A DNA stretch of 64,000 nucleotides from the NCBI RefSeq assembly GCF_000499385.1, contig NW_013651698.1, positions 44,102-108,101 of the forward strand, in the 5' to 3' direction. Source of the DNA: Eimeria necatrix (taxonomy: Eukaryota > Apicomplexa > Conoidasida > Eucoccidiorida > Eimeriidae). The notes beneath the pieces are model-generated. The model worked only from the letters and a program-made list of their open reading frames with translations. It was not told the DNA's origin and made no database searches. Positions 44,390-50,300 of this stretch are shown piece after piece; the stretch's first letter is position 1, and each line of letters opens with the position of its first letter. The translations under genes were made by a program, and so were the position numbers.

Positions 44390-47300
44390 ATGGTGAAAGT
44401 AACGAAGGAGGATTTGGAGAAGTTGGAGATCAAGGGTACGCCAGTGGCTAGGGAGGGCCCTCGCGAGGGTTTAGGGTTTGGAGTCAAGAGTTCAGGGTTT
44501 AGGGTTTAGGACTCGCTCTACATCCCTGAGAGCCATTGAAGCCGCCATGTTTTCCTCCCTGTGGATCGGGAGGCCGCAGTGGTTTCGCGCAGGCCCCCGG
44601 TGTCTCGATAGTTGGGGTTTAGGGTTTAGGGTTTAGGGTTTAGGGTTTGGGGTTTTGCTGCAGAGGAGGAGCAGGAAGAGCTTCTGAAGTACATTTCAGA
44701 TGACAGCGATGAAGACGAAGAAGCTCTTACAAAAAAGCTGGAGGCTTTTGAGCCTCTGCTGCAGATGGATGACCGATTCCCAGACACAGTGATCATGGTT
44801 GGAGTCCCGCTGGTAGGGTTTAGGGTTTAGGGTTTAGGGTTTAGGGTTTAGGGTTCGTTGTTGACGCGTTTCTGCGGATGCTGGGGCTTTGCGGAGGCGT
44901 GAGTGGCAGTTGGGGCTCGACCCTCGTGCACAGCCAGGCGTCGCGCCCTGCGCCGCGGGCCGAGGGTTTAGGGTTTAGGGTTTAGGGTTTAGGGTTTAGG
45001 GTTTGGGGTTTTGCGAAGGTGGGGGCGGACCGTCTGGAGAAGCTGACGGCGGTGTTGCGGAAGAAGATCGCGGACGAGTTGTCGCGGAAAGGAGGCGAAG
45101 ACGTCGAGGGTTCTTTTCTGATTGAACTTCCGATGAACTCCGACAAAACCCTAACTCGGGGTTGTTGTTTTTTGACATTTCCGAGTGTATATGCAGCACA
45201 GCATGCAGCAAGAGCTCTCAATGGATACAAGATCGACAAAAGACATACTTTTCGAGCGGCTCTTTTGGACGAGTTCGACGAGATCGTCGCTCGCGACAAA
45301 GACTACAAACCCGCCATTACTCTCCGCGGTTCGCCAAACCCTAAACCCTAAACCCTAAACCCTAAGCCCTAAACCCTAAGCCCTAAACCCTAAGTCCTGC
45401 GCACTGGCCCCGCGCAGCGCCTCGCGCCTTGCGCCGCGCGCGCCCGCGGCCAGCTCGCGCGGCGCCGCCCCTGCGGGTTAGGGTTTAGGGTTTAGGGTTT
45501 AGGGTTTAGGGTTTAGGGTTTGGTGTCGCTTAGGGTTTACGCGAGAGGACGTGCGTTGGTGGCTGAGCGACCCGCGGTTTCGCGAACAGTTCGTGCTGCG
45601 CTTCGACTCCGAAACGGAGGTTTACTGGCTCGACCCTCTCGAGGGAAATCCCTGCAGTCTTTGTTACGACGGCCAAAAAGAAAAGCAAGACGGAAAGGCA
45701 GTTTGGACCGAACTCAAGGTCCAGTGGTCACCCCAGGGCTCCTTCCTCGCCACTTTCCACCGCCAGGGTGGGTTTAGGGTTTAGGGTTTAGGGTTTAGGG
45801 TTTAGGGTTTGGGGTTTAGGGTTTGGGGTTTAGGGTTTGGGGTTTAGGGTTTAGGGTTTAGGGTTTAGGGTTTGGGGTTTAGGGTTTAGGGTTTAGGGTT
45901 TAGGGTTTAAGGGTTTGGGGTTTGCGCGGGCCCGCGGAGTCGCGGGCGCCGGCTCGAGGGTTTGCGGTTTGCGGTTTCGAAGCGGGGGGTTGGGGTTTGG
46001 GGTTGGGGGTCGCGCGTTTTCAAACCACAGTTTAGGGTTTAGGGTTTGGGGTCGGGGGTTGGGCCTTTCGAGACCACTGTTTAGGGTTTGGGGTTTAGGG
46101 TTTGGGGAGCAGCGCACAGGACCGGCGCCAAGGGCGGCGTTCGACGGGGCAAGCTCCGCTGCTTGGCCTTCGGGAGCACGGGCGAGGGTTTAGGGTTTAG
46201 GGTTTAGGGTTTAGGGTTTTGGGCCTCGGCTGCGGCTGGACTCTCAGGTATTGCCCTGTGGGCCGGCAGGAACTTCGAGAAGAAGGCGCGCCTGGAGCAC
46301 AAGGAAGTCAAGCAGGTTCGTCGAGGGTTTAGGGTTTAGGGTTTGGGGCTTAGGGTCTAGGGTTTGGGGCTTAGGGCTTAGGGTTTAGGGTGAGGTGTCA
46401 ATGCAGTGCATCTTTCTGTGGCCGGCGAATTTTCCGCTTTTGGTTGGGGTCTCATTAGCGTCCTAGGGGGAGACGTCCATCAGTAGGGTTTAGGGTTTAG
46501 GGTTTAGGGTTTAGGGTTTAGGGTTAGGGTTTAGGGTTTGTGCGCAGATCATGTTCTCCCCGAAAGAGACTTACATGCTCTCTTGGGATGGAACCCCAGC
46601 ATCAATGCGAAACGAAAAGGCGTTTAAGACATGGAACGTGATGACGGGTCGGCGCTTCTAAACCCTAAACCCTAAACCCTAAACCCTAACGCGTAAACCC
46701 CGAAGTCCAGGGTGCAGGCCGTGCGCCCCATCGGCGAACCGGCATCGCGTTCGCGCGCTGCGGGGTCGCGGTACAAGAAACAGGGTTTAGGGTTTAGGGC
46801 TTAGGGTTTAGGGTTTAGGGTTTAGGGTTTAGGGTTTAGGGTTTACGTGCAGGTGAGATGCTGCGGCAGTTCGCCACGCCCGCAGCCACTCCAAGAGGCA
46901 CTGAATTTCCTCACTTTTTATTTTCTCATGATGAAAAGTACTTGGCGAAAATTGGAGACAAAGAATTGTGCATTTACGCAATGGACCCCAAGGACAACTT
47001 CCCGGACCAGGCCGCCGACGAGGTCCGAGGGTTTAGGGTTTAGGGTTTAGGGTTTAGGGTTTAGGGTTTAGGGTTTGGGGTGGTGGAGAGCCGCGAGGGG
47101 CTTCGAGCGCCAGCACCATCATCTCCAGGCCTGCGGCCGGCGGGCCCGGCAGCGCAGGCGCTGGGGCCAAGGGCTAGGGTTTAGGGTTTAGGGTTTAGGG
47201 TTTAGGGTTTGCGTTGCAGGACGTAACTCCCGTGAAGTTGCTGCGAGATGAAAAAGGCCACTTCTCAGCCCTCAAGTATCCCGTAGAAAAGTTTGAATGG

Positions 47301-50300
47301 TCTCCAGGAGACAACATTGTTTCTTTGTGGATAAGGGGTTCTGACGACACTCCAGGTGCGCCCGAAACCCTAAACCCTAAACCCTAAACCCTAATTTTGT
47401 CTGTTGGGGTTTGGGTTTCGTCTTTGGCCCTTGTGGAGCTGTGGACTCCATCACCTCCCCCATAGGCTTTTAGCCTTCTCTCTGCGATGCGCCTGAATGC
47501 TTTAAACCCAAATTGCCACAATTAGGGTTTAGGGTTTAGGGTTTGGGAGCACAGAGACTGAGGGGTTGAGGGAGACAAACGAGGCATATGTGTCGGGTGC
47601 GACGCCTCCCTAACGCCGCCCCTGATGAACTGTCACAACAACCATTTAGGGTTTAGGGTTTAGGGTTTAGGGTTTGGGGGAGGAAAGGGGCTTTTTTGAG
47701 GCAGATTGATGGGGAGGGTGTGAGGGTTTCAAGGCCTCCCAACGAGTTGAGTATCCCTTTTTAGAGTGGAAGAAGGGTTTAGTGTTTTGCCGAGGGTTTA
47801 GGGTTTGTTTCCAGCACGCAGGATTGTGGCCTAGGGTTTAGGGTTTGAGCGAGGGTTTAGCGTTTGCTCTGTTGGCCACTGCCTAGGGTTTAGACGTGCG
47901 TGGGCAGGGCTTGGAGCCCGCGCCCTCTCGGGCGCGCGTTGCTGCGACGGCGCAGGTTTAGGGTTTAGGGTTTAGGGTTTAGGGTTTAGGGTTTAGGGTT
48001 TGTCGCAGGGCGGCTGATCCTGGTGGAGGTTCCGAGCCGGCGGGAACTGGCCAGCAAAAACGTCTACAACGTCAAGGGCGCCGCCATGCACTGGCAAGGC
48101 AATGGCGACTTTTTGTGTTTGAGAACAATGGTGTTTAAAAAGACTGGAAAAAAAGGAAGAAAGGAATTTAGTCAGTTGGAGATTTTCCGCATGCGCGAAA
48201 AGGACATTCCCGTCGACAACCTCCAGCTCAACGACATAGCCGTCCAGCTCCACTGGGAGGAGGGTCCCAGTGCGCCCCAAACCCTAAACCCTAGCCCAAA
48301 CCCTAAACCCTAGCCCAAACCCTAAACCCTAGCAAGGGGGGCCCGAAACCCTGGCGCCGCGTGCGAGGGGTGGGGCAGAGCCTGATGGGGTCGGGGGCTG
48401 CAGGGAGTTTCCGGGAGAGCAGGCGGATGGTTTTTTCGGAGGGTTTAGGGTTTAGGGTTTAGGGTTTAGGGTTTGGCGCTGGGTCTTCAGGCAAGCGGTT
48501 CGTGCTCGTCGTTCAAGAAGAAGGGACAACCAACCAGAGCCTGCGCTTCTTCCGCGTCGCCGATGCCGCTGAAGGCAGTAAGGGTTTAGGGTTTAGGGTT
48601 TAGGGTTTAGGGTTTAGGGTTTGGAGCTGGGGTTTGGGGCTTGTGCGTAGCCTTCACGCGCAGACACCGACTAGGCTTGACCGAGCCCTCAAGAAGAGTG
48701 GCGGTTTTGGGTCGAGGGCTGAGAGCTGCACCGAGGGTTTAGGGTTTAGGGTTTAGGGTTTAGGGTTTAGGGTTTAGGGTTTGGGCGCTTCAGACGTGGA
48801 GACGAACAAGAGAGACACGATAATGACTCATTCTTTCGACATTCCCAACTACATGAACTTTTTAAAATGGTCTCCTTTTGGATCTTATTTTGTCTTGGCA
48901 TCTTTGAGCACTTACGGGACAGTGATGTTTTGCCACTTGAACGACCAGGACAAAGTCGAGGTCCGCGGCCCAAACCCTAAACCCTAAACCCTAAACCCTA
49001 AACCCTCGCTGCAGGCGTTGCTGCTGTTGCGTCGGCCGCGGCGCCTCGCACGGGCCGCTGTTCCCGCGGCGCGTCTGCTGCGGCCTGCGGGCGGCGGGCC
49101 GCTGCCCGCGCGGCGCCGCAAACCCTAAACCCTAAACCCTAAACCCTAAACCCTAAACCCTTGCGCTGCAGGTGCTGCACCAAGACGAACACTACATGTG
49201 CAACGAAGTCCGCTGGTCCCACTGCGGAAGATATTTGGCCACTTGCGTGGTTATGCCCCTCGTAAGTGGGGCGCAGGCCTACAGGTTTGGAGACAACACT
49301 GGCTTCAACATCTGGACTTTCCAGGTGAGGGTTTAGGGTTTGCGAGGGTTTAGGGTTTGCGAGGGTTTGGGGTTTGCGAGGGTTTGGGGTTTGCGAGGGT
49401 TTGGGGCTTGCCGGCGTTGGGGCTTGCGAGCCTTTGGGGTTTGTTGAGGGGTTGTTGCTGCGCGGCTGCGGGGGAGAACAGGTCCGGGCCTGCTGCGGCG
49501 GCGGGGTTTAGGGTTTAGGGTTTAGGGTTTAGGGTTTTGCTGCAGGGGAAGCTGCTGGAAAAGACCAAGAAGGAAAACTTCTATCAGTTCCTCTGGAGGC
49601 CTCACCCCCCGACTTTGCTGACGGAGAAGCAGCTCGACGACATCAAGAAGCGGATGAAGGAACACAGGTTTGGCTTTGAAGCTGAGGGTTTAGGGTTTAG
49701 GGTTTAGGGTTTAGGGTTTAGCGTTTGGTTTCGCTCTCTCTTCTGGGGCTCACGCGTAGCCCAAGCCGGCGCTTGGCGCCGTGCCAGCTGCAGCTGCTGG
49801 GCGTGTGGGGCTTCGGCAGAGTAGGGTTAAGGGTGTAGGGTTAAGGGTTTAGGGTTTGGGGCTTAGGGTTTAGGGTTTAGTGTTTAGGGTTTGTGTGCAG
49901 CAAGAGGTACGAGGCGGAGGACGAGAGACTCCGCAGCGAGAAACGCCGAGCCTTCTTGAAGCAGCGGGAAGAGGAAAGTGAAAAGTTCCAGCAGATCTTG
50001 GATGAGCTTGAGGCCTGGAAGATGAAACATGTGAGGGTTTAGGGTTTAGGGTTTAGGGTTTAGGGTTTGGGGTTTGGGTTTCAAATGACTTGGGGGGTTC
50101 AGGGTCCACTACTCAGGAGAGCAAGTGGCGCGTGGGCCGTAGAGTGTGGCGCGTCGGGCTTTCCGCACTTCTCTAGGGTTTAGGGTTTAGGGTTTAGGGT
50201 TTAGGGTTTGGGGTTTGTTTTGGGTTTGCTGCAGCCCAAGTACGAAGAGTGGTGCAGAGCCCAGGAGGAATTCGACACGTGGTTTGAGTGGGAGTATAAG

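Follow-up and report, generated by a model that had tools for sequence, protein, structure and literature searches.

Telomere-like repeat arrays at the ends of eIF3b introns in Eimeria necatrix and their spacing across the genome

Earlier work describes telomere-like repeats as abundant in Eimeria and assigns them no role, and a single gene raises the question of what has shaped their placement. In a 64-kb stretch of E. necatrix contig NW_013651698.1 (the window; positions below count from its first base), the gene for the translation factor subunit eIF3b is interrupted by 14 introns, and arrays of the heptamer TTTAGGG, in one orientation or the other, stand close to the splice sites. The heptamer is known to avoid coding sequence in Eimeria (PMC4287421, PMC7564333; these and the other papers are cited here from extracts), and its arrays in E. 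falciformis run to 6-14 copies (PMC4287421). Why, then, do the arrays of eIF3b lie at both ends of its introns? The reading that we favour, with a probability of roughly 0.45, is that telomere-like arrays spaced on the scale of a nucleosome are tolerated, and perhaps used, at intron ends, the eIF3b introns being the extreme of a genome-wide pattern. The repeats themselves were known beforehand; new here are the strand bias on the acceptor side and a genome-wide neighbour spacing of approximately 100 bp with its oscillation.

Arrays in the eIF3b introns

The intron lengths given in an earlier note on this DNA are by themselves compatible with 216 gene models, and alignment to an E. acervulina eIF3 subunit (P0001) and to T. 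gondii P0002 singled out one. A starting model of 747 aa was aligned to these two proteins, and two changes gave the final model, which runs from the ATG at 44390 to a stop codon ending at 50351 and whose protein has 91% identity to P0001, or 90% as scored in the protein search, and about 60-62% to P0002. The donor of intron 9 is 48270 and not 48264, with the resulting PSKRFV junction matching P0001, so that this intron measures 221 bp instead of the 227 bp first given; the other 13 lengths are unchanged. Intron 5 is placed at 46316-46547, where the junction HKEVKQ/IMFSP matches P0001 and the length stays at 232 bp. At each of the 14 junctions, 11-13 of 13 flanking residues are identical to P0001; this protein is labelled "putative" at its source and is perhaps itself a prediction, so that splicing is supported by homology and not by transcripts. 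At the level of sequence and homology, the anatomy of the eIF3b introns as observed in the earlier note is confirmed, with one donor corrected.

Arrays of (TTTAGGG)n type number 89 in the window, 36 of them within 44390-50351, compared with a mean of 0 in 50 block-shuffled versions of the window. All 36 are intronic, and none falls in the 15 exons. A perfect array of at least 21 bp (at least three heptamers) carries a stop in all six frames, since it follows from the heptamer that every frame contains TAG, or TAA on the opposite strand; arrays can therefore persist in genes only within introns. Telomere-like repeats are indeed present in every eIF3b intron, and all 14 have an array within 30 nt of each splice site, with distances of 1-30 nt from the donor to the first array and 7-28 nt from the last array to the acceptor. 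In 11 of 14 introns an array lies no more than 20 nt from each of the two splice sites, where random placement would give 0.97 (p <= 5e-5). The layout of donor, array, core, array and acceptor stands as described; the core, first put at roughly 80-100 bp, was estimated slightly short and spans 81-113 bp in the 12 short introns. Core GC content is 0.50-0.87 across the eIF3b introns, compared with 0.52 in coding sequence.

For introns of other genes we relied on models from our own codon-score finder, which in its first run called 12 of the 14 introns of eIF3b correctly and added false ones; six of ten models, together with the models of a kinase and a phosphatase gene, were run against Pfam, and seven of these eight had a match. 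The array-free set holds 56 introns, left from 61 after removal of those below 80 bp or without a CAG or TAG end. A narrow length class is borne out by this comparison: 12 of 14 eIF3b introns span 197-233 bp, compared with 6 of 56 array-free model introns, which are longer (median 288 bp for the 61 and 335 bp for the subset of 56). As a striking feature in its own right, however, the length does not hold up, being ordinary for the genus: the median intron is 222 bp in E. tenella and 183 bp in E. falciformis (PMC4287421), and the mean in E. tenella is 298 bp (PMC8515493).

The splice sites have some features of their own. Donor position +5 is G in all 14 eIF3b introns, compared with 41 of 56 array-free model introns, and positions +3 and +4 are mixed. 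Upstream of the acceptor, pyrimidine content is 0.50 in eIF3b versus 0.60 in the array-free models (p 0.04), and in 10 of 14 eIF3b introns the stretch from the last upstream AG to the terminal AG is free of A, compared with 14 of 56. If the branch point is an adenosine, then in these ten introns either the branch is the A belonging to an upstream AG or splicing passes over AGs.

Acceptor orientation and array spacing across the genome

Array orientation differs between the two intron ends. The pairing of CCCTAAA on the donor side with TTTAGGG on the acceptor side in introns 3, 6, 8 and 9 is as the earlier note stated, and each of the remaining ten has a single orientation throughout; nine of these are G-rich TTTAGGG, and the exception is intron 11, the RNA of which would be C-rich. 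Arrays within 30 nt of an acceptor are in the sense TTTAGGG orientation in 13 of 14 eIF3b introns and in 9 of 9 introns of other genes, whereas the orientation of donor-proximal arrays is mixed (9 versus 5 in eIF3b, 5 versus 5 in other genes). The same bias is visible in scans of the whole genome (44.0 Mb, 1148 contigs; one array is counted several times where multiple registers fit). GCAGG lies 2-12 nt past TTTAGGG arrays in 895+581 cases and past CCCTAAA arrays in 161+146, a difference of about fourfold that is also found in the minus-strand counts, where each site is listed once (581 versus 146). As a control for composition, GCAGG was compared with its 20 permutations outside eIF3b: after TTTAGGG arrays it is the commonest (18 of 170 arrays; the next, CAGGG, has 12), and after CCCTAAA arrays (6 of 170) it is not. 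On the donor side, CAGGTNNG precedes TTTAGGG in 99+216 cases and CCCTAAA in 25+27; the sites are few, their surroundings are G-rich and the count has no permutation control, so we do not use it as strong evidence.

Genome-wide, a three-unit word of the heptamer gives 17829 forward and 17599 reverse matches, compared with 12 and 8 for a reversed control; the opposed-array pattern had no match in viral contigs. Spacing was analysed in a sample of 258 kb, or about 0.6% of the genome, in which 61.6 kb reads as N; the sample was hand-picked and non-random, consisting of the window's contig, low-numbered contigs and, later, pieces that are rich in arrays or carry a chaperonin gene. The median array in it is 44 bp. 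Gaps between neighbouring arrays peak at 80-119 bp, with eIF3b in or out. In clusters outside eIF3b that contain four or more arrays, 45 of the 109 gaps between neighbours measure 75-125 bp, compared with 19.0+-3.8 when arrays are re-placed at random within the same clusters (p 0.0005). Gaps of this size outside eIF3b make up 22 of 42 in predicted introns, 3 of 31 across exons and 32 of 87 outside predicted genes; gene prediction is incomplete, and part of these 87 are perhaps genic.

Opposed pairs extend this pattern beyond the sample. Pairs of the order CCCTAAA...TTTAGGG number 2449, 774, 1868 and 1083 at gaps of 95-125, 205-235, 291-321 and 375-405 bp, an oscillation with a period near 167 bp over two periods. 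The second and third bins were taken from the trough and second peak of the sample, and the fourth was forecast to be low in advance, as it came out, in line with periodic spacing. The reverse order, TTTAGGG...CCCTAAA, is rarer (1584 versus 2449). Counts of same-orientation pairs at gaps of 50-80 (2361, 3197) were left unused, as interrupted long arrays also match the pattern. Across 44.2-50.9 kb, which takes in eIF3b and its surroundings, the 43 arrays keep a common phase at 167.5 bp (R 0.47, jitter p 0.0017), the best period in the sample is 170 bp, and the sample without eIF3b departs from the jitter null at p 0.04. Our claim extends to a strong regularity between neighbouring arrays and to an oscillation that the genome-wide counts show over two periods; a lattice reaching beyond neighbours is not proven.

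Other genes, RNA folding and array cores

How general is the arrangement in eIF3b? The set of array introns in other genes comprises 17 (16 plus 3, minus 2 whose predicted acceptor falls within an array). A donor array lies within 20 nt in 8 of them (expected 4.2, p 0.028), as does an acceptor array in 8 (expected 4.25, p 0.029). eIF3b is an extreme case, and the form with arrays at both ends is not shown to be general. There are individual examples elsewhere: in a kinase gene (Pfam Pkinase), a 133 bp intron carries CCCTAAA at 10 nt from its donor and TTTAGGG at 19 nt from its acceptor, and in a calcineurin-like phosphatase gene (Pfam) the arrays of a 232 bp intron lie 6 and 9 nt from the two ends; two long introns of the latter gene, with the predicted acceptor in an array, are outside the 17-intron set. 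Some TTTAGGG...CCCTAAA pairs bracket short exons, as judged from translation by eye, and the phosphatase and kinase cases also appear in the gene models.

Array density varies between genes. eIF3b is dense in arrays, whereas the later introns of eIF3d and the chaperonin gene (contig C731; no array across 3.8 kb) are array-free by the criterion used. The arrays of eIF3d are confined to its first three introns, and the predicted acceptor of the first lies inside an array and is doubtful. By eye, degenerate heptamers are visible in a later eIF3d intron (about 25600-25900). Among the models of other genes, one on the minus strand of contig C1 (33057-48718) combines an eIF2A domain with a glycosyltransferase-2 domain, and more likely represents two neighbours merged by the gene finder than a true fusion.

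Table 1. Coordinates of the genes, eIF3b introns and duplicated units in the window (arrays: +, TTTAGGG in sense)
Feature	Position	Strand	Details
eIF3b gene	44390..50351	+	15 coding exons, 749 aa; spliced model and homology
Intron 1	44436..44663	+	228 bp; arrays +,+,+; 30 nt from donor, 15 nt from acceptor
Intron 2	44813..45018	+	206 bp; arrays +,+
Intron 3	45329..45533	+	205 bp; donor CCCTAAA, acceptor TTTAGGG; fold z -11.7
Intron 4	45768..46247	+	480 bp; four + arrays
Intron 5	46316..46547	+	232 bp; three + arrays
Intron 6	46648..46852	+	205 bp; CCCTAAA, later TTTAGGG; fold z -8.1
Intron 7	47023..47219	+	197 bp; arrays +,+
Intron 8	47356..48008	+	653 bp; CCCTAAA array first, then five TTTAGGG arrays
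Intron 9	48270..48490	+	221 bp; CCCTAAA, later TTTAGGG
Intron 10	48578..48793	+	216 bp; arrays +,+
Intron 11	48961..49171	+	211 bp; CCCTAAA at donor and acceptor; sole acceptor exception
Intron 12	49325..49545	+	221 bp; arrays +,+
Intron 13	49668..49900	+	233 bp; arrays +,+
Intron 14	50031..50234	+	204 bp; arrays +,+
eIF3d comparator	23056..28300	+	12 predicted exons; Pfam eIF-3_zeta E 2.5e-86
Tandem duplicate, array+core unit	51956-52048 and 52103-52195		93 nt, 100% identical, offset 147 bp
Tandem duplicate, array+core unit	55659-55768 and 55822-55931		110 nt, 97% identical, offset 163 bp

Folding of the eIF3b introns was predicted with ViennaRNA on single strands, with 30 dinucleotide shuffles per intron. 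For the opposed-array introns 3, 6, 8 and 9, where a fold was proposed earlier, the predicted stability is well beyond that of the shuffles (z -11.7, -8.1, -5.2 and -5.9); in the others the excess is weak or lacking (-3.6 for intron 4, +0.7 to -2.8 for the rest). Pairing of the first 80 with the last 80 nt is clearly above the shuffles in nine introns (2, 3, 5, 6, 8, 9, 10, 13 and 14); in five of these the arrays are of one orientation, so that their end pairing must rely on G-U pairs. In the remaining five of the 14, the C-rich intron 11 included, ViennaRNA gives no raised end-to-end pairing. A simple end-pairing rule is weakened by the nine introns with same-orientation TTTAGGG arrays and by the unequal genome-wide counts of the two opposed orders. 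With the quadruplex option on, quadruplexes are predicted in ten of the 14 introns, in keeping with the suggestion that they could form. A snoRNA host gene was considered and rejected, as eIF3b itself contains no Rfam match and none of the 14 introns carries a C box. A search of 43800-50900 at E<=1 gave six weak Rfam matches, all at 43926-44033 upstream of the gene and below gathering scores; no match in the window reaches the gathering score, the H/ACA type being covered through Rfam only.

The cores between arrays are for the most part unrelated to each other. Of the 90 cores in the 258 kb sample, 4 match sequence other than themselves at E<1e-4, and two of these four are local tandem duplicates of an array+core unit (Table 1). 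Their offsets of 147 and 163 bp match the general spacing scale, which makes misalignment of array to array a likely source of the duplicated units. The first arrays may have been seeded by telomerase at breaks or by slippage. A mobile unit with a shared core is disfavoured, since the other 86 cores have no other match in the sample. The earlier suggestion of a unit that has spread agrees with the layout, with spacing of approximately 100 bp in and outside predicted genes, and is unlikely in the sense of a mobile element. Ladders of an array plus a short similar core were seen by eye on two other contigs (C20:81436-82168 and C22:10732-10938) and resemble minisatellites seeded on telomere-like arrays. 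The window downstream of eIF3b also holds an array of a 10-base telomere-like variant, AAACCCTCGT, in about 23 copies (53779-54007), long arrays with palindromic GGGGGCCCCC-type units (57541-58192) and, on the plus strand at 54893-56750, long pyrimidine-rich repeats of CTTTTT types with strong AT skew.

Competing readings and known systems

In the favoured reading, short arrays recur approximately 100 bp apart, or 150-167 bp from centre to centre, which would be the size of one nucleosome repeat; for comparison, nucleosomes repeat every 155 bp in P. falciparum (PMC8153576). A compact intron of approximately 210 bp would fit one array-core-array unit, with the splice sites just beyond the arrays. 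The spacing may have come from seeding or expansion of arrays in the linker DNA between regular nucleosomes, from duplication of one array+core unit by misaligned neighbouring arrays, or from both. At 3' ends, arrays would be tolerated or used by splicing chiefly when the sense strand reads G-rich; there, the final UUUAG could provide the branch site, or folding of the array could mask the AGs within it.

Several observations weigh against this. As a sign of chromatin, spacing close to 165 bp is no more than suggestive, and the arrays, at a median of 44 bp, exceed the Plasmodium linker length of 8 bp (PMC8153576). A peaked neighbour gap alone may suffice to produce the oscillation: without eIF3b, the sample does not go beyond a gap-shuffled (renewal) null (p 0.15; with eIF3b, p 0.03). 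Linker seeding by itself does not predict the orientation bias at acceptors, and among the 17 array introns of other genes just 2 carry an array within 20 nt of each end (expected 0.86, p 0.20). As for a use in splicing, the pyrimidine drop before the acceptor is small (0.50 versus 0.60), and A-free intervals between AGs also occur in array-free introns (14 of 56). A bolder form of the favoured reading, which we regard as doubtful, would define "telo-introns", a class with telomere-repeat ends in which a nucleosome lattice of approximately 167 bp has its linkers marked by arrays, exons and cores fill the nucleosome places and sense (UUUAGGG)n is read by the spliceosome as a substitute for the customary pyrimidine tract and branch region. 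Since each heptamer holds GU and AG, an array that landed in an exon may be spliceable at once, and insertion of telomere repeats could thus create introns.

The main competitor, which we consider improbable, is that both-end arrays are a selected splicing element that acts in the pre-mRNA via end pairing, quadruplexes or a bound protein that sets the limits of introns or exons; the pairing could be of CCCUAAA with UUUAGGG, or a weaker self-pairing of UUUAGGG by G-U. Close placement at both sites in 11 of 14 eIF3b introns, the acceptor bias inside and outside that gene and genome-wide, the narrow size class (12 of 14 versus 6 of 56), the strong predicted folds of introns 3, 6, 8 and 9 (z -5.2 to -11.7), the raised end pairing in 9 of 14 and the array-flanked short exons of the kinase and phosphatase genes would all fit such an element. 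However, comparable spacing is found outside predicted genes, the chaperonin gene and the later eIF3d introns do without arrays, 5 of 14 eIF3b introns lack raised end pairing and both ends are seldom occupied elsewhere; moreover, opposed arrays would pair equally in either order, yet the genome counts are 2449 versus 1584. The "selected intron form" of the earlier note shares this balance, with the size class and the acceptor bias in its favour and the 2 of 17 elsewhere and the spacing outside predicted genes against it. Neutral growth of the heptamer in any non-coding DNA, with Eimeria introns merely being short and eIF3b a chance extreme in a repeat-rich segment, would agree with heptamers that are abundant and mostly non-coding (PMC4287421, PMC7564333), with the E. 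tenella median of 222 bp (PMC4287421), with the known repeat-rich segments (PMC9131526) and with chance-level occupancy of both ends elsewhere (2 of 17). The placement in eIF3b and the spacing elsewhere are strongly non-random, and the sequence that follows arrays is biased about fourfold by orientation, which makes this account quite unlikely.

Two further accounts concern the origin of the units. Old tandem duplications, in which misaligned arrays copied array+core units during repair, lengths were kept and cores diverged, would leave a decayed satellite-like ladder with no role in chromatin or RNA. The two clear duplicates in the window and the ladders seen by eye on C20 and C22 are what such a process would produce; as 86 of 90 cores match no other in the sample, and as duplication alone leaves both the location at splice sites and the acceptor orientation unexplained, we consider it unlikely as the whole explanation. 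Some introners are nucleosome-sized, and an introner-like mobile unit would insert as array-core-array and so make introns, which suits the end repeats and the length class. Published introners often have terminal inverted repeats and prefer linker DNA (PMC9860276). Introners are families of similar copies, whereas the cores in the sample are unrelated, and arrays with their spacing also occur outside predicted genes; we therefore give this origin very little credence.

Regular spacing that is linked to gene structure makes it possible to ask directly which force shapes the arrays: chromatin, repair or splicing. Should array-type 3' splice sites prove real, they would provide natural introns with a competing AG in each heptamer and could inform on how the spliceosome chooses an AG; if the arrays lie in linkers, the spacing of nucleosomes would be legible in the genome sequence itself. 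For annotation, the rule of a TTTAGGG array, about 7-28 nt and then AG could aid exon calling in Eimeria.

We recognised no description of heptamers at Eimeria splice sites or in regular spacing in the open-licence literature, as represented by titles and abstract openings and with Reid 2014 and Ling 2007 outside its coverage; within that scope, the regular layout at splice sites is without a description. Compared with the AAACCCT/AGGGTTT repeats of Eimeria, the heptamer here is the same, with about six copies per array, interstitial, non-coding and alongside CAG repeats; the extracts of that literature deal with abundance, segments and coding avoidance, and both-end intron placement, acceptor bias and regular spacing are not among their subjects. 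The likeness to snoRNA host genes consists of a translation-factor gene with many introns and cores of approximately 100 nt between possibly complementary ends, but eIF3b differs in its lack of Rfam matches and C boxes. With introners, these introns share end repeats; they differ in having no family of similar cores in the sample and in the presence of arrays outside predicted genes. The telo boxes and short interstitial telomere motifs of plants are likewise telomere-unit motifs near genes (PMC3022908), but they are short motifs in 5' gene regions (PMC3022908), unlike the arrays described here, which stand in pairs at splice sites.

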